Shown: positions 34,798 through 50,479 of the stretch, in pieces
How positions within the stretch are numbered: position 1 is the stretch's first letter
How the letters are laid out: every line of letters begins with the position of its first letter
NCBI GenBank assembly: GCA_021372335.1
Contig: JAJFUR010000037.1
Span: forward strand, 1-50,479
From: Methanobacteriota archaeon
GTDB taxonomy: Archaea > Thermoplasmatota > Thermoplasmata > Methanomassiliicoccales > UBA472
Direction of reading: 5' to 3'
DNA length: 50,479 nt
Notes under the pieces: model-generated
What the model was told of the DNA's origin: nothing
The model's database searches: none
What the model saw: the letters and a program-made list of their open reading frames with translations, nothing else
Program-made: the position numbers and the translations under genes

Positions 34798-35547
34798 CTA
34801 TTCATCTCCGACCATCTCAAAGGCGATGCCGCATGACGGACAGCAGCGGTCCTCCGGGGACAAGCGGACCCCGCACTCGGGGCAGACCTCTCCAAGGAAC
34901 AAACCGCACTCGCAGACGCCCTTCTTCTCATCGATCATCCTTCCGCAGGAAGGGCATAGGACCAGCTTAACCTCCTCAAACAGCTCGTGACAATAAGGGC
35001 ACTCCACCTCCCCTTCGTCCATCTGGGTCCCGCAGATGGGGCAATAGAACACTCCGTCCTCATCGGCGATGATCGCCCCGCATTCGCATACCCCGGAATC
35101 CTTTAACACCGTCCTACCACATATCGGGCATTCCATGCTCTCCAGCTCCGGGTAGGTCGCCCTTTCCTCCACCTCCTCCGGGGAGTATGCCTTTTGGCAA
35201 TAGGGGCAGAAGCCAGTGCGCTTCAGGCAGGTGATGTGAAAGGTCCTTCCGCACTCGCAATCGACACTGGGAAGCCCGGCCTTCAGCTTTCCCATGCATA
35301 TCTGGCAGACCACGCCCTCACCCCGTACTGGCCGGATCTTCCCCCGAGGTCCCACGGGGCTTAACGGGTCCAACCTATCCTCGTGAAAGGTCCAGCACCG
35401 TGCCTGCCCTCGGTCCCTTTTAACGAAAAAATAATAAATAGGGATGAGGCTGGATATGCCGAGCGATCCGAGGAACAGGGCGAGCACCCTCGAACGGACC
35501 GCATCGCCGTTTATATTATTTCCCACCCGGTTATTGAATGCCGTCAT
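34798..35547 (-). CDS. Membrane-anchored RING-like and zinc-ribbon protein
   Basis: This 249-aa protein starts with a polar N-terminus and one transmembrane helix (about residues 21-42). A first zinc module at 81-117 has the pattern CQIC, 12 residues, CEC, GRTF, His104, IT, Cys107, then CPYC, resembling a RING-H2 finger. Three more zinc modules follow (140-156, 169-186, 198-239), mostly CPxC, ten residues, CECG, the style of archaeal zinc ribbons; about 30 cysteines in all. I do not recognise a named family. A role as a membrane-bound adaptor or ubiquitin-like ligase is speculative. It is upstream of ftsZ on the same strand, with only 65 bp between, but ftsZ has its own TATA box. Ends in TAG. 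Confidence 0.75.
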   Translation of the reverse strand: MTAFNNRVGNNINGDAVRSRVLALFLGSLGISSLIPIYYFFVKRDRGQARCWTFHEDRLDPLSPVGPRGKIRPVRGEGVVCQICMGKLKAGLPSVDCECGRTFHITCLKRTGFCPYCQKAYSPEEVEERATYPELESMECPICGRTVLKDSGVCECGAIIADEDGVFYCPICGTQMDEGEVECPYCHELFEEVKLVLCPSCGRMIDEKKGVCECGLFLGEVCPECGVRLSPEDRCCPSCGIAFEMVGDE

Positions 35548-35693
35548 TGGGAGCGATCAGCGCGCTAAGGTCAAAAGCCCATTTCCTATGCACGCACGCT
35601 TATTCTTCCGATTACTAAAACGATAAAAGCGAAATGTTCTTAAACGGAACGCAATCACCAAAACACCATGTCCTATCCATCAACAGAGCACAT
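35548..35693. other. Intergenic stretch between zinc protein and hdrA leader
   Basis: This stretch is the AT-richer half of the 337-bp gap between divergent genes. It should hold the promoter of the zinc-protein gene (a GCTTTTGACC-like patch on the minus strand near 35570). A GTTC-TTAAACG-GAAC inverted repeat lies around 35637-35650. I see no gene in it. A 68-codon open frame at 35668-35874 was considered and rejected. Confidence 0.4.
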
Positions 35694-35713
35694 AATGTTG
35701 AAATATGGACATT
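35694..35713 (+). promoter_or_regulatory. Candidate TATA box and operator before hdrA
   Basis: GAAATATGG (35700-35708) is flanked by an inverted repeat AATGT/ACATT (35694-35698 and 35709-35713). Transcription would start near 35727, at the base of the first hairpin of the leader. The operator reading is inference. Confidence 0.4.
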
Positions 35714-35725
35714 CCAATCCCTGCA

Positions 35726-35870
35726 AGGCCGCCCAGTCGTCAGGGGGGCTCTCCCTGGCGGTCCAGGCCTCTGGGATGAGGTTCCCGGGAGGTGCCCATT
35801 CGCCTCTCTGGGATAGGTGTGCGAAGGGTAAGGGGCGGACCCGGCGTTTTGGTCCGGAGTGGGAGTTACA
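35726..35870 (+). ncRNA. Structured leader of the hdrA-mvhDGA operon (cis-regulatory candidate)
   Basis: Three consecutive hairpins can be drawn by eye. The first spans 35726-35770 (AGGCC/GGCCT outer stem, GCC/GGC and AGGG/CCCT inner stems). The second spans 35783-35813 (TCCCGGGAGG with CCTCTCTGGGA, one bulge). The third spans 35836-35856 (CGGACC/GGTCCG). They lie directly before the AGGAGGGAG ribosome binding site of hdrA. The GC-rich leader contrasts with the AT-rich promoter just upstream. It matches no riboswitch class I can recognise. Function as a regulator or RNA stabiliser is inference. Confidence 0.45.
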
Positions 35871-35884
35871 ATAGGAGGGAGAGG

Positions 35885-38800
35885 TTGAGCGGTTTAAAAT
35901 CAATATTTGGCGGATTGTTCAAGAAGGACAGCAAGGGGGAACAATCGTCCCAAGGATCGATGGATGACGTAAAAGGAGGAGCGAATATGGTATCAAAGAG
36001 CGGTTCTGTTCTGGTCGTCGGGGGAGGTATCGGCGGCGTCCAGACCTCTTTGGACCTGGCCGAGTCCGGGTTCAAGGTCTACATGGTCGAAAGCAAGGCC
36101 AGCATAGGGGGTGTCATGTCCCAGTTGGACAAGACCTTCCCAACGAACGATTGTTCGATGTGCATTCTGTCCCCTAAGCTCGTGGAGGCGGCGAGGCACC
36201 CAATGATCAGCATGATGACGCTGACCGAGGTCATGGGGATCGAGGGGGAGGCCGGCAACTTCACCGTTACCCTGAAGAAAAAGCCCCGGTACGTCCGCGA
36301 GGACAGATGCGTCGGCTGCGGTCTCTGCGCAGAGAAGTGCCCGTCCAAGGTCCCCAGCGAGTACGAGCTGGGCCTGATGAACCGGAAGGCTATCTACGTG
36401 GCCTACGCCCAGGCTGTGCCCATGAAGTACGCGATCGACGCTGATAAATGCCTCTATCTCACCAAGGGCAAGTGCGGCAACTGCAAGAAGGTCTGCCCCG
36501 CCGATGCCATAGACTATGAGATGAAGGAGCAGATCGAGAAGATCAACGTGGGTGCGGTCGTGCTCGCGCCCGGGTACGAGCTATTCGACGCCCGCTTGAA
36601 GAAGGAGTACGGCTACAAGGAGTTCAAGAACGTCCTCAACAGCCTGGAGTTCGAAAGGGTCCTTAGCGCCACCGGTCCCTATCAGGGGCACGTGGTCAGA
36701 CCCTCCGACCATCAGACACCTAAGAAGGTCGCTTTCATCCAGTGCGTCGGTTCCAGGGATGAGAAGGTCGGCAACCCCTTCTGCTCATCCGTCTGCTGCA
36801 TGTATGCGCTCAAGCAGGCCATAATCGCGGGGGAGCACACCACTGGCCTGAAATCCACCATCTTCTTCATGGACCTCAGGGCGTTCGGCAAGGAGTTCGA
36901 GGACTACGCCAAGAGGGCCGAGAACGAGTATGGCATCAAGATGCACCGCGGCACCCGCGTCGCCTCCGTGGAGGAGACCGAGGGCAACAACCTGCTGCTG
37001 CGCTACAGCGATGGGAACAACGTCCTGGCCGAGGAGTTCGACCTGGTCGTCCTGTCCGCCGGCTTCCAGCCTCCATCATCCGCCAAGGCCTTGGCTGACC
37101 GGCTGGGGTTCAAGCTGAACGAATTCGGCTTCTGCCAAACCGGGGTCTACACTCCCCTTGAGACCACCAAGAAGGGGGTGTACGTCACTGGTGCTTTCAG
37201 CGCCCCTAAGGATATCCCGACCTCCGTGGCCGAGGCGAGCGGTGCGGCCGCCAAGGCCGGCTCCCACGTGTTCAACAACAGGGTCAGCATCGACACCGTT
37301 GTCAAGGAGGTCCCCGAGACCGATGTCACCGGGCAGGAGCCCCGCATCGGTGTGTTCGTGTGCGACTGTGGCATCAACATCCGCGGGACCGTCGACGTGC
37401 CCTCCGTCGTGGAGTACGTGAAGACCCTGCCCAACGTAGTGTACGCTGCGGAGAACAAGTACACCTGCTCCGCTGATACCCAGGAAAGCATCAAGAAGAT
37501 GATAAAGGAGCACAAATTGAACCGCGTAGTGGTCGCCTCCTGCACCCCCCGGACGCATGAGGCCCTGTTCCAGAGCACCATAAAGGAGGCTGGGCTGAAC
37601 CCGTTCCTCTTCGAGATGGCCAACATCCGCGACCAGTGCTCCTGGATCCACATGCACGAGCCGGAGAAGGCCACCGAGAAGGCCAAGGACCTGACGCGGA
37701 TGGCCGTGGCCAAGGCCCGCTACCTGGAACCGCTGACCAAGTCCAAGCTGGGCGTCAACCACTCCGCCGTCGTCGTGGGCGGCGGGCTGGCCGGAATGAC
37801 CGCTGCCCTGGACATCGCCGCCCAGGGCTTCAAGGTCGACATCTTGGAGGCCACAGGTGCCATGGGCGGGAACATGGTCAACCTGTACACCGCTGAGGGA
37901 GGGATCTCCCCCAGGCAGTACATCAAGGACCTGGAGGCCAAGGTGCGGGCGAACGGTAAGATAACTGTTCACCTGAACACCAAGGTGGAGGACGTCTCCG
38001 GATTCGTGGGCAATTTCAAGGTGAAGGTCACCGGTGGCAAGGAGATCGAGACCGGTGCCATCGTGATTGCCACAGGGGCCAAGGCCTATGTGCCGACGGA
38101 GTACAACTACGGCAAGGACAAGAAGGTGGTCACCCAGAACGAGCTGGAGAAGGCCTTGGCGGAGGGCAAGTTCGCCGCCAGGAACGTCGTCATGGTCCAG
38201 TGCGTTGGCTCTAGGAACGATGCCGCCCCGTACTGCAGCCGTGTATGCTGCTCCAAGGCGGTCAAGAACGCCATTGAGATCAAGAAGAGGGACCCCAAGG
38301 CCCAGGTCTACATCCTGCACAAGGACATCAGGACCTATGGCTTCAGGGAGACCCTGTACAAGGAGGCTAGTGGGCTGGGCGTCAAGTTCATCCGTTATCC
38401 GGAGAACAAGATGCCCGAGATGACCGCGGACGGCAAGGTCGTGGTCGAGGACACCATCCTCGGCGCCCCGGTCCAGCTTTCCCCGGACTGTCTTGTCCTG
38501 AGCGTCGGGGTCCGCCCGAACGAGGACAATGAGGAGCTCGCCAAGATGTGCAAGGTGCCCTTGAGCAAGGACAAGTACTTCCTCGAGGCGCACATGAAGC
38601 TGAGGCCGGTCGACTTCGCCACCAGCGGCGTATACCTGGCAGGGCTTGCCCATTGGCCGAAGTTCATCGACGAGACCATCGCTCAGGCCTCCGGGGCCGC
38701 CTCAAGGGCCATGACCATCATCTCGAAGCAGTACCTCGAGACCCAGGGCATCATCGCCGCGGTCAACGAGATGGTATGCAATGGTTGCGGCGTGTGCGAA

Positions 38801-39004
38801 CCCGTGTGCGAGTACCGCGCAATCACCATCGTGGGCGACCCGGCGAACCCGGACAAGCGCAAGGCCGTGATCAACGAGGGCCTGTGCATGGGATGCGGGA
38901 CCTGCGTGGCCGCGTGCCCGTCCGGCGCCCTCGAACAGAAGGGCTTCAAGAACAACCAGATCCTGGCACAGATCGACGCCGCCCTCGTCGGAGGTGGTAA
39001 GTGA
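35885..39004 (+). CDS. hdrA: Double-length heterodisulfide reductase subunit A (HdrA)
   Basis: This 1039-aa iron-sulfur flavoprotein combines two HdrA-like modules. The first half has an FAD motif (VLVVGGGIGGVQTSL), an inserted ferredoxin-type pair of clusters (CVGCGLCAEKCP and CGNCKKVCP), and a conserved QCVGSRDEK segment with CCMYALKQA. The second half looks like a complete classical HdrA: an N-terminal domain (VFVCDCGINIRGTVDVP), an FAD motif (VVVGGGLAGMTAAL), a second QCVGSR segment, and a C-terminal 2[4Fe-4S] ferredoxin (CNGCGVCEPVCEY, CMGCGTCVAACP). Methanogen HdrA has about 650 residues; long forms are known in sulfate reducers, as I recall. In bifurcating complexes HdrA splits electrons from H2 between ferredoxin and heterodisulfide. 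Two starts are plausible: TTG at 35885 after AGGAGGGAG, and ATG at 35987 after GGAGGA. No HdrB/HdrC genes are nearby. Confidence 0.9.
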   Translation: MSGLKSIFGGLFKKDSKGEQSSQGSMDDVKGGANMVSKSGSVLVVGGGIGGVQTSLDLAESGFKVYMVESKASIGGVMSQLDKTFPTNDCSMCILSPKLVEAARHPMISMMTLTEVMGIEGEAGNFTVTLKKKPRYVREDRCVGCGLCAEKCPSKVPSEYELGLMNRKAIYVAYAQAVPMKYAIDADKCLYLTKGKCGNCKKVCPADAIDYEMKEQIEKINVGAVVLAPGYELFDARLKKEYGYKEFKNVLNSLEFERVLSATGPYQGHVVRPSDHQTPKKVAFIQCVGSRDEKVGNPFCSSVCCMYALKQAIIAGEHTTGLKSTIFFMDLRAFGKEFEDYAKRAENEYGIKMHRGTRVASVEETEGNNLLLRYSDGNNVLAEEFDLVVLSAGFQPPSSAKALADRLGFKLNEFGFCQTGVYTPLETTKKGVYVTGAFSAPKDIPTSVAEASGAAAKAGSHVFNNRVSIDTVVKEVPETDVTGQEPRIGVFVCDCGINIRGTVDVPSVVEYVKTLPNVVYAAENKYTCSADTQESIKKMIKEHKLNRVVVASCTPRTHEALFQSTIKEAGLNPFLFEMANIRDQCSWIHMHEPEKATEKAKDLTRMAVAKARYLEPLTKSKLGVNHSAVVVGGGLAGMTAALDIAAQGFKVDILEATGAMGGNMVNLYTAEGGISPRQYIKDLEAKVRANGKITVHLNTKVEDVSGFVGNFKVKVTGGKEIETGAIVIATGAKAYVPTEYNYGKDKKVVTQNELEKALAEGKFAARNVVMVQCVGSRNDAAPYCSRVCCSKAVKNAIEIKKRDPKAQVYILHKDIRTYGFRETLYKEASGLGVKFIRYPENKMPEMTADGKVVVEDTILGAPVQLSPDCLVLSVGVRPNEDNEELAKMCKVPLSKDKYFLEAHMKLRPVDFATSGVYLAGLAHWPKFIDETIAQASGAASRAMTIISKQYLETQGIIAAVNEMVCNGCGVCEPVCEYRAITIVGDPANPDKRKAVINEGLCMGCGTCVAACPSGALEQKGFKNNQILAQIDAALVGGGK

Positions 39005-39456
39005 TGGCCGAGGAAGCGCAGGCCCAGAGCGCCCCCGTGGAGGCCGAGGGCTGGGAGCCGAAGCTGTTGGTGTTCTGCTGCAACTGGTGCTCCTATGCTG
39101 GGGCTGATCTGGCCGGAGTGTCCCGTCTGCAGATGCCGACCAACTTCCGTGTCATCCGCACAATGTGCTCGGCCAGGGTGGACCCCGAGTTCGTCCTGAG
39201 GGCCTTCGCAAAGGGGGCCGATGGCGTCCTCGTCCTCGGCTGTCACCCCGCCGACTGCCACTACATTGGCGGGAACTACCGCACCAGAAGGAGGATCGCC
39301 CTGCTCCGCGTGCTGCTGGAGCAGTACGGGTTCAACCCAGACCGATTGAAGCTGGAATGGGTCTCCGCCTCAGAGGGGATGAAGTTCCAGCAGACCATAA
39401 AGGAGTTTGACCGCACCATCAGGGAACTGGGGCCGAACCCCATAAACGAGGAGTAA
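39004..39456 (+). CDS. mvhD: F420-non-reducing hydrogenase iron-sulfur subunit MvhD
   Basis: This 150-aa protein carries a [2Fe-2S] cluster and links the hydrogenase to HdrA. The conserved cysteines are in CCNWCSYAGADL, RTMCSARVDP and LGCHPADCHY; the GGNYRTRRRIALLR segment is also typical. The ATG at 39004 overlaps the hdrA stop (TGATG) and follows GGAGGTG, so translation is coupled. An N-terminal tail rich in Ala, Gln and Glu precedes the domain. Stop TAA. Confidence 0.92.
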   Translation: MAEEAQAQSAPVEAEGWEPKLLVFCCNWCSYAGADLAGVSRLQMPTNFRVIRTMCSARVDPEFVLRAFAKGADGVLVLGCHPADCHYIGGNYRTRRRIALLRVLLEQYGFNPDRLKLEWVSASEGMKFQQTIKEFDRTIRELGPNPINEE

Positions 39457-39469
39457 GGAGGAGAGATAA

Positions 39470-40489
39470 ATGGCAAAGATAAGGATCGCACAGTACTGGG
39501 CTGCCGGGTGCGGAGGATGCGACGTCGCCCTGCTGGACATCGACGAAAAGATCCTGGGCGTCGCCGAGATCGCCGACATCGCGTTCTGGCCCATCGCCGT
39601 GGACGCCAAGGTGAAGGACGTCGAGGCCATGCCGGATGGGTACATAACCGCCACCCTCATCAACGGAGCGATCAGGAACAGCGAGAACGAGCATATGGCC
39701 AAGCTGCTGAGGCAGAAGTCGGCCCTCATCGTCTCCTTCGGTTCCTGCGCCTGCTTCGGCGGGGTGCCCGGCCTGGCCAACATGACCAGCAAGAAAGAGA
39801 TCCTGGAGTACGTGTATTGGCACACCCCTACCTCCGACAACGTGGAGAAGGTTCTGCCCACCCCGCATTACAAGGTCCCCGAGGGGGAGATCGAGATCCC
39901 GGTCCTGTACGACACCGTATACACCCTGGACCAGGTCATAGACGTGGATTACTACATGCCCGGTTGCCCGCCGACGACCAACCTCATAAACGAGTTCCTG
40001 GGCATGGTCGAGAAGCACGTGAAGGAAGGCGCCCCCCTGCCCCCCAAGGGCTCCGTCATCGCCTCCCAGAAGACCCTCTGTGATGAGTGCGCCAGGAAGA
40101 GGACCACTAAGAAAGTCGAGAAGATATACATGCCCTACGAGATCGACATCGATCCCGAGAAGTGCATGCTGGAGCAGGGCATCATATGCCTGGGGCCGTC
40201 CACGAGGGCGGGCTGCGGCGCCAAGTGCCTGGAGGGCAATCAGCCCTGCCGCGGATGCATGGGCCCCACAGCCGAGGTCCTGGACCAGGGCGGAAGCATG
40301 CTGAGCGCGCTGGCCTCGATATTCGCCATTGGCAACCAGGAAAGCCAGCTGAGCGAGGACGATATCTTGGAGCTGATGACCCAGGTCAAGGATCCGCTCG
40401 GCACGTTCTACGCGTTCACAATGCCCGCCTCTATCATCAAGAAGAAGGTTAAGGAAAGGAAAGCTACCACAGCCCCCAAGGAGGCCTGA
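39470..40489 (+). CDS. mvhG: F420-non-reducing hydrogenase small subunit MvhG
   Basis: This 339-aa subunit of a [NiFe] hydrogenase relays electrons through three iron-sulfur clusters. Ligands are visible in AAGCGGCDVALLD near residue 12, FGSCACFGG, MPGCPPTTNL, and the C-terminal CDECARKR, CLGPSTRAGCGAKC and QPCRGCMGP segments. The C-terminal part (about 200-339) is long relative to soluble standard hydrogenases, as in Mvh. GGAGGAGAG precedes the ATG at 7 nt. Stop TGA. Confidence 0.93.
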   Translation: MAKIRIAQYWAAGCGGCDVALLDIDEKILGVAEIADIAFWPIAVDAKVKDVEAMPDGYITATLINGAIRNSENEHMAKLLRQKSALIVSFGSCACFGGVPGLANMTSKKEILEYVYWHTPTSDNVEKVLPTPHYKVPEGEIEIPVLYDTVYTLDQVIDVDYYMPGCPPTTNLINEFLGMVEKHVKEGAPLPPKGSVIASQKTLCDECARKRTTKKVEKIYMPYEIDIDPEKCMLEQGIICLGPSTRAGCGAKCLEGNQPCRGCMGPTAEVLDQGGSMLSALASIFAIGNQESQLSEDDILELMTQVKDPLGTFYAFTMPASIIKKKVKERKATTAPKEA

Positions 40490-40493
40490 ACGA

Positions 40494-42020
40494 ATGTGCC
40501 CGATATTGATGGGTCAGGGACCCGATAAGATTGAGAAGGTGACCGAGAAGCGGATCACGATCGACCCGATCACCCGGTTGGAGGGCCATGGCAAGATCGA
40601 GATCTTCCTGGACGACAACGGGAACGTGGCAAACGCCTATTGGCAGGTGCCCGAGCTGAGGGGATTCGAGAAGTTCTGCATCGGCAGGTCCGTGGATGAG
40701 CTCAACAAACTGACCTCCAGGCTCTGCGGGGTATGCCCCGGGGCGCACCACCTATGCTCCACCAAGGCGTTGGACGGTGTGTTCGGCGTCGAACCCCCTG
40801 AGACGGCCAAGAAGCTCCGCGAGCTCTTCTACATGGCGCACTACATCCACAGCCACATCGCCCACTTCTACGCCTTGGCGGCCGCTGACTTCGTCCTAGG
40901 CCCCGGGGCCCCGAAGGCCGAGCGGAACATCCTCGGGGTGGTCGCGGCGGTCGGAGTGGAGATCGGCGGCGAGGTCATCAAGCACCGGTCCTACGCCCAG
41001 AAGATCCAGGAGATGCTCGGCGGAAAGGCCACGCACCCGGTGTGCGGCATTCCCGGCGGGTTCTCCAAGAGCATCAGCGAGGACGAGAGGGCGAAGATCG
41101 AGGCAATGGCCAAGTCCTGCGTGGAGTTCAGCAAGTTCACGAACCAGCTGTTCGCAGATGTCGTGCTCAAGAACAAGGACTATCTGGCGCTGATCACCGA
41201 CCCCGGCATCTACTACAACGAGACCTACTACCTGGGCACGGTGGACAAGAACGACAAGATCAACTTCTACGACGGAACGCAGAAGATGATCTCCCCCACC
41301 GGGGAGGAGGTCGCCCGCTACACGGGCAAGGACTACCTGAAGTACATCGCCGAGCACACCCTGCCCTGGTCCTACGAGAAGTTCTGCTACTTCAAGCCGA
41401 TCGGCTGGAAGGGCCTTGTGGACGGGAAGGACAGCGGCATCTACCGCGCCACCCCGCTCGCCAGGCTGAACGTTTCGAAGGGCTTCACCACCCCGCTCGC
41501 GCAGGCGGAGTACGAAAAGTACTTCGGCACGTTCCGGGACCTCGGGGTCAAGGGGCCGATCCATCATACAATGGCGACCCACTGGGCCCGTGTGATCGAG
41601 ATGCTGTACGCCTCGGAAAAGTTGCTGGAGCTGTCCCAGGATCCGGAGATCACCGGCAAACATGTGCGCAACCCTGTGAAGGAGCCTGGCGAGGGCGTCG
41701 GTATATTGGAGGCCCCGCGTGGCACGCTCGTGCACCACTACGTAGCGGACAAGAACGGCATAACAAAGGACGTGAACCTGGTGGTGGGGACCACGAACAA
41801 CAACGCCCCCATGAACCTCAGCGTCCGCAAGGCCGCCACCGCTCTGATCAAGAACTGGCAGGTGTCCGACGGGCTGCTCAACGCCGTGGAGATGGCCTAC
41901 AGGGCCTACGACCCCTGCAACAGCTGCGCCACACACACCCTGCCAGGCCAGATGCCCATCGACGCGGTCATCAGGCGGGCCGACGGCTCGGTCTACAGGA
42001 CCCTTTCCCGCAGCTGCTGA
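40494..42020 (+). CDS. mvhA: F420-non-reducing hydrogenase large subunit MvhA
   Basis: This 508-aa subunit holds the [NiFe] active site. The N-terminal nickel ligands are in SRLCGVCPGAHHLCS (about 75-89) and the C-terminal ones in DPCNSCATH (about 472-480). After the histidine a tail of about 27 residues ending RSC remains, to be removed by a maturation endopeptidase. With MvhD, MvhG and HdrA it should oxidise H2 and pass electrons to heterodisulfide and ferredoxin by flavin bifurcation. The ATG at 40494 follows GGAGGCC. Stop TGA, then a T-rich terminator. Confidence 0.94.
   Translation: MCPILMGQGPDKIEKVTEKRITIDPITRLEGHGKIEIFLDDNGNVANAYWQVPELRGFEKFCIGRSVDELNKLTSRLCGVCPGAHHLCSTKALDGVFGVEPPETAKKLRELFYMAHYIHSHIAHFYALAAADFVLGPGAPKAERNILGVVAAVGVEIGGEVIKHRSYAQKIQEMLGGKATHPVCGIPGGFSKSISEDERAKIEAMAKSCVEFSKFTNQLFADVVLKNKDYLALITDPGIYYNETYYLGTVDKNDKINFYDGTQKMISPTGEEVARYTGKDYLKYIAEHTLPWSYEKFCYFKPIGWKGLVDGKDSGIYRATPLARLNVSKGFTTPLAQAEYEKYFGTFRDLGVKGPIHHTMATHWARVIEMLYASEKLLELSQDPEITGKHVRNPVKEPGEGVGILEAPRGTLVHHYVADKNGITKDVNLVVGTTNNNAPMNLSVRKAATALIKNWQVSDGLLNAVEMAYRAYDPCNSCATHTLPGQMPIDAVIRRADGSVYRTLSRSC

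Positions 42021-50188: not shown

Positions 50189-50479
<291 letters not shown>

Follow-up and report, generated by a model that had tools for sequence, protein, structure and literature searches.

Bacterial leader-peptide attenuators of the trp/tna type place a translated leader before an operon. The leader open reading frame before hdrA that we describe here likewise precedes an operon, but it is longer (58-120 codons), and we found in it neither a codon run nor an arrest peptide nor a terminator. The riboswitches and cis-regulatory RNAs of Rfam 15 share with it a position upstream of a metabolic operon, whereas the hdrA leader has neither a match among them nor a significant fold and is predicted to be translated. 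Huber et al. (2019) examined 14 gene pairs of Haloferax volcanii and E. coli and found strict coupling of translation in 13 of them (PMC6728339). Such termination-reinitiation pairs resemble the hdrA leader in their ATGA, TGATG and TAATG overlaps, in a Shine-Dalgarno sequence lying within the upstream ORF and in a leaderless first gene. However, both genes of those pairs encode real proteins, whereas the ORF before hdrA (ORF1) is almost free of amino-acid constraint and can be broken into relays of shorter ORFs. In Methanosarcina mazei, Ribo-seq assigned about 10% of the new small ORFs to 5' UTRs, where they are translated, and one leaderless small ORF was reported (PMC11456600). A short ORF before a metabolic gene and a leaderless small ORF are common to that study and our locus; its ORFs are Ribo-seq calls from a single species, with hdr unmentioned, whereas the hdrA leader is kept in two families by frame alone. 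A translationally coupled leader ORF would thus belong to a kind already known, and what appears unusual here is a frame that is kept while its peptide drifts.

The HdrA-hydrogenase complex is the electron entry point of H2-dependent methylotrophic methanogens, and the control of its synthesis is little known. A leader conserved only in its readability is easily missed by gene callers, as it has no family and no conserved peptide, and by RNA searches, as it has no structure.

The hdrA operon and its predicted promoter

The window, which is the whole stretch of 50,479 nucleotides that was analysed, is one contig of a 1.47 Mb draft genome of a Methanomassiliicoccales archaeon. Close relatives identified through the hdrA product were Methanomassiliicoccales MAGs, UBA472 among them; the genomes compared were mostly MAGs, and the conclusions are all comparative. 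The operon lies on the forward strand and consists of hdrA (35885..39004), a vhuD/mvhD-like hydrogenase delta subunit gene (39001..39456) whose start overlaps the hdrA stop, a vhuG/mvhG-like hydrogenase small subunit gene (39470..40489) and, at the operon end, a vhuA/mvhA-like [NiFe] hydrogenase large subunit gene (40494..42020). The best NCBIfam match of the hdrA product was HdrA2 at 1019.8 bits, which does not reach the cut-off of 1100; the delta subunit matched Pfam FlpD (3.7e-55), and the small and large subunits were assigned by Pfam/NCBIfam searches. hdrA starts with TTG in this genome and with CTG or GTG in relatives. Divergent from the operon and adjoining its promoter is a gene for a multi-zinc-ribbon protein of 249 aa (34798-35547, reverse strand).

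An archaeal BRE and TATA box, CGAAATGTTCTTAAA (35630..35644, forward strand), matches the consensus and is the predicted promoter of the hdrA transcript. Its first T lies 31 nt from the ATG at 35668 that opens ORF1 (35668..35874, forward strand; 68 codons, MSYPSTEHIMLKYGHSNPCKAAQSSGGLSLAVQASGMRFPGGAHSPLWDRCAKGKGRTRRFGPEWELQ; stop TAG at 35872-35874). Of 18 genomes of the same family (f1), 14 had a spacing of 28-32 nt, which suggests leaderless mRNAs there; it was longer in G004, G011, G012 and G019. The second family (f6) showed spacings of 48-60 nt, and most of its members carry a Shine-Dalgarno sequence such as AGGAG before the start. In f6 the start alternates between two positions of the same frame that are separated by nine bases. 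Where the first position reads ATC, ATA, GTC or TTG, the second is ATG; the single genome whose second position reads ACG has its ATG in the first. Such shifts are what would be expected if initiation at the leader were under selection. A usable ORF1 start, either leaderless or with a Shine-Dalgarno sequence, was found across the 33 genomes. The scan of the leader region for bacterial promoters and terminators returned nothing, and no terminator-like site was seen.

The first-pass annotation had set the TATA box further downstream, probably at GTTGAAATA (35697-35705) within the conserved block at 35694..35713, so that the transcript would begin at the base of a first hairpin. This placement is probably wrong: the element lies inside the conserved frame, and the better BRE and TATA box CGAAATGTTCTTAAA stands upstream at a conserved spacing.

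Stop avoidance and the junction with hdrA

An hdrA leader of this type was found in 33 genomes from two families (f1 and f6). The hdrA genes of f2 and of f3/f5 have no such leader; in f2 a long A+T-rich stretch lies upstream, and in f3/f5 hdrA sits inside an operon. All of the first 25 genomes compared share the open frame of ORF1 (24 in register, and the 25th, L007, in its own frame). In the 24 genomes in register, the first 55 codons counted from the conserved block contained 0 stops in frame, whereas the two alternative frames contained 63 and 57. To allow for relatedness, we formed 13 disjoint sister pairs and placed the observed substitutions randomly on one member of each pair. In the ORF1 frame 14.7 new stops were expected and 0 observed; frame 1 gained 16 (15.5 expected) and frame 2 gained 15 (15.4 expected). 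Multiplied together, the probabilities of gaining no stop in the ORF1 frame came to about 1e-7, a value that assumes independent sister pairs and uses MAG sequences. As judged by this comparison, the frame of ORF1 is kept open by selection.

The stop codon of ORF1 lies 10 nt before the hdrA TTG at 35885 and is overlapped by the hdrA Shine-Dalgarno sequence AGGAGGG (35873..35879, forward strand); a ribosome binding site had been noted here before, and it is present. GGAGGG occurs in seven of the eight same-genus leaders, and the eighth has GGAGGAG. In two members of the genus (G003 and G007) ORF1 overlaps the hdrA start by 4 nt (CTGA), and in the others it ends within 20 nt. The distance from ORF stop to hdrA start lay between -4 and +21 nt for most genomes and was 34-45 nt in g7. 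In most f6 genomes the stop abuts the hdrA ATG (TAAATG or TGAAATG), and G010 has TAGATG.

A single ORF of 67-120 codons reached the hdrA start in 23 of the 33 genomes, and a relay of at least two short ORFs led to hdrA in nine. The relay junctions were ATGA in G019, TGATG in G029, G032 and G057, and a 10-nt overlap in G045. Those of G013 ran TAA-A-ATG, ATGA and TAATG, then GAATGA into hdrA, and the relays of G012, G017 and G005 have short gaps between their ORFs; the leader of G005 shifts frame. One genome (G026) is an exception, with a 15-codon ORF1, fragments, and then a 38-codon ORF that has its own Shine-Dalgarno sequence and abuts hdrA. The junctions of f6, G005 and G013 were taken from sequence context, the automated hdrA start there being a later internal ATG.

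Sequence comparison supplied the open frame, the stop near or overlapping the hdrA start, the promoter-to-ATG spacing and the near-absence of amino-acid constraint described below. From these we infer where transcription starts, that initiation is leaderless, that the leader is translated and coupled to hdrA by termination-reinitiation, and that regulation acts through it. We consider it fairly probable that ORF1 is a ribosome-transit leader through which translation of hdrA is coupled to initiation at the 5' end of the mRNA. Transcription from the BRE/TATA at 35630-35644 would begin at about 35665-35668, which would put the mRNA 5' end on the ATG at 35668 or only a few nt from it and make the message leaderless. 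Ribosomes would load at this ATG, translate the 68 codons, terminate at the TAG on the hdrA Shine-Dalgarno sequence, 10 nt before the TTG, and then (re)initiate at hdrA. The peptide would be largely immaterial. Selection would act to keep translation unbroken all the way from the 5' end of the message to hdrA, and expression of the HdrA-hydrogenase operon would be governed by initiation and elongation along the leader. Independent initiation at hdrA is possible as well, because hdrA has a strong Shine-Dalgarno sequence of its own. For the operon, the leader may serve only to couple translation to hdrA, may shield the nascent RNA from termination, or may hold a sensor in its first 26 codons.

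A bolder form of this reading, which we hold only tentatively, is a leader that is a reading frame and nothing else: a path of 200-400 nt, made of one ORF or of a relay of up to four, whose peptides drift, and through which the synthesis of the H2-dependent heterodisulfide reductase would be gated entirely by ribosome transit, perhaps with a sensor in the first 26 codons. If the coupling were confirmed, the leader would provide both a control point that is simple and testable and, in its stop avoidance without amino-acid constraint, a signature by which to look for similar leaders elsewhere.

Peptide constraint and the 5' third of ORF1

The pN/pS of whole ORF1 among the eight genus members was 0.77 in frame versus 0.77 and 0.80 in the wrong frames, and other groups showed the same pattern, with the frames alike. 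As a control, the hdrA body of the same genomes gave 0.07 in frame versus 2.45 and 2.34 in the wrong frames. The genus-specific N-terminal extension of hdrA (35885-35986, forward strand; 33-34 aa, MSGLKSIFGGLFKK... / MSGLKSIFGGLFKKDSK...) gave 0.30 versus 1.20 and 1.13 in the eight genus members, indicating that amino-acid selection is acting on the extension. The values of 0.30 and 0.07 in the same genomes mean that the method detects coding selection where it is present. Within ORF1, codons 1-26 had an in-frame pN/pS of 0.37-0.65 and the remainder 0.65-1.20. By this measure amino-acid constraint on ORF1 is nearly absent, with a weak signal in codons 1-26, and what is conserved in the leader before hdrA is the reading frame, not the peptide.

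These values bear on whether ORF1 might encode a small functional protein made from the hdrA message, such as a rapidly evolving accessory or regulator of the HdrA-hydrogenase complex. Such a protein would fit the frame conserved across relatives, the lower pN/pS of codons 1-26, the recurring N-terminal core ([FY]-K-T-L-K-Y in f1, Y-D-M-L-I-Y in f6) and the G/R-[FL]-P-T-P peptide that recurs in g4, g5 and g6. It fits poorly with a whole-ORF1 pN/pS equal to that of the wrong frames, with a length that varies between 58 and 120 codons and with the split into 2-4 ORFs in several genomes. Searches of the ORF1 product against Pfam and NCBIfam gave no match, and AlphaFold2 returned no confident fold (mean pLDDT 53, pTM 0.14), the product being predicted to be disordered; a folded small protein was rejected on this lack of confidence. 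We regard the small-protein explanation as unlikely.

The conservation peak of the leader falls in codons 1-26 of ORF1, third positions included, around the block AATGTTGAAATATGGACATT (35694..35713, forward strand; codons I-M-L-K-Y-G-H), whose order-wide core is GTTRAWATAY. The block is the best conserved part of the leader, is conserved upstream of hdrA in both families, and has no other match in the window at up to 3 mismatches. A peptide or RNA role is possible in this 5' third of ORF1, because it is better conserved and has the lower in-frame pN/pS. The block was also considered as an operator or promoter common to many operons and rejected: the scan of relatives gave only two further matches, both judged to be chance; that of G011 falls between genes in a promoter-poor stretch, and that of G002 where an apparent Alba gene begins. 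No other plausible leader in the scanned genomes carried the conserved motif. The block of G005 (L031) is out of frame with the predicted leaderless ATG, and the hdrA leader of G013 (L026) is a relay of four ORFs; given these two cases, the block may also matter as a nucleotide sequence.

The AUGUCC at the predicted mRNA 5' end (35668-35673) can pair with a GGACAU 34 nt on (35707-35712). Seven of the eight genus members keep this pairing and G004 has lost it; it does not occur outside the genus, and it could mask the leaderless start codon.

Leader-peptide attenuation would place a conditional stall in this first third of ORF1, and the RNA thereby exposed would be terminated by FttA/aCPSF1 or would hide the hdrA Shine-Dalgarno sequence. 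The conservation peak agrees with such a stall, as do the AUGUCC/GGACAU pairing, the low z of -2.7 for the fold of 35660-35719 and the presence in archaea of the termination factor FttA. However, runs of a single codon type are missing from the translations, the region yielded no terminator-like site, the pairing is missing in G004 and outside the genus, and the scheme has no known sensor. Attenuation of this kind seems distinctly unlikely.

RNA structure in the leader

The first-pass annotation had described a GC-rich leader filled by three strong hairpins and proposed it as a cis-regulatory RNA responsive to a ligand, redox state or protein. The stretch is GC-rich, and hairpins can be drawn inside ORF1 (35737..35860, forward strand) at about 35737-35761, 35767-35793 and 35794-35829, with a weaker one at about 35838-35860, but they are no stronger than base composition would produce. 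For 35694-35884 the MFE was -79.5 versus a mean of -77.7 in dinucleotide shuffles (z -0.38), and 64 of 200 shuffles were as stable. Sliding windows of 60 and 100 nt gave z near 0 and no outlier across the three hairpins; the two outliers among 24 windows lay near the 5' end (35660-35719, z -2.7; 35680-35779, z -2.2).

Across the eight same-genus leaders, 61, 72, 68 and 86% of cells were paired in the four hairpins. Covariance analysis in relatives, which had been named as a check on the hairpins, spoke against them: pairs with two-sided change numbered 9 versus 8.0 in shuffles, and 193 of 500 shuffles reached 9. The covariation score and percent paired beat all but 6 of 500 shuffles, an excess that relatedness alone can give according to the tool's own warning. 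RNAalifold on the same eight leaders found two-sided change in 11 of 47 consensus pairs with a covariation term of only -1.84, which became unfavourable on a longer alignment. It also suggested that UCCUAYCC at the ORF1 start pairs over a long range with the hdrA Shine-Dalgarno sequence, a possibility confined to this genus. Small local hairpins may be present in the leader, for example GAGGU/ACCUC at 35789-35806, whose pairing is kept with compensation in G004. Rfam 15 scans of the leader at gathering scores and at E<=5 found no family, only an irrelevant microRNA match far below threshold, and a tRNA search found none.

A structured, untranslated, riboswitch-like RNA could draw on the GC-rich hairpins, the 11 changed pairs, the compensated GAGGU/ACCUC stem and the score that few shuffles reach. 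Set against these are a fold at chance, two-sided changes that many shuffles equal, a weak covariation term that turned unfavourable on the longer alignment and the empty Rfam search; such an RNA also leaves the absence of stops in one frame unexplained, and the 0 versus 14.7 stops weaken it strongly. On this evidence there is no case for a conserved multi-hairpin RNA before hdrA, and we judge the riboswitch-like reading very improbable. The leader is not of the riboswitch type, because its fold is at chance, its hairpins lack covariation, Rfam is empty and one frame is stop-free; we infer instead that the region is a translated leader and not a folded non-coding RNA switch. The earlier proposal holds in so far as the leader is conserved and probably cis-acting in the 33 genomes of two families, and this conserved cis-arrangement before hdrA is real; it fails as to a structured non-coding riboswitch, and the sequence comparisons gave no sign of a ligand, redox or protein sensor. 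The notion that the GTTRAWATA block is a second, internal TATA promoter in an otherwise functionless region draws on its TATA-like sequence, conserved even where the frame differs (G005), and is most improbable, given the better BRE/TATA upstream in nearly all relatives and the unexplained stop avoidance before and after the block.

Other hdrA copies (paralogues) in g4 and g6 (L013, L057 and L021) are preceded by an unrelated short ORF, [MV]KP..., which ends near the hdrA start. Since these copies too have a short ORF, although a different one, leader ORFs before hdrA are perhaps a general habit here. The N-terminal extension of hdrA begins at a non-ATG codon (TTG, CTG or GTG) in all eight genus members compared. 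At the far end of the window, a 16S rRNA gene (50189-50479, reverse strand; Rfam SSU_rRNA_archaea) is cut by the window end, its 5' end missing.
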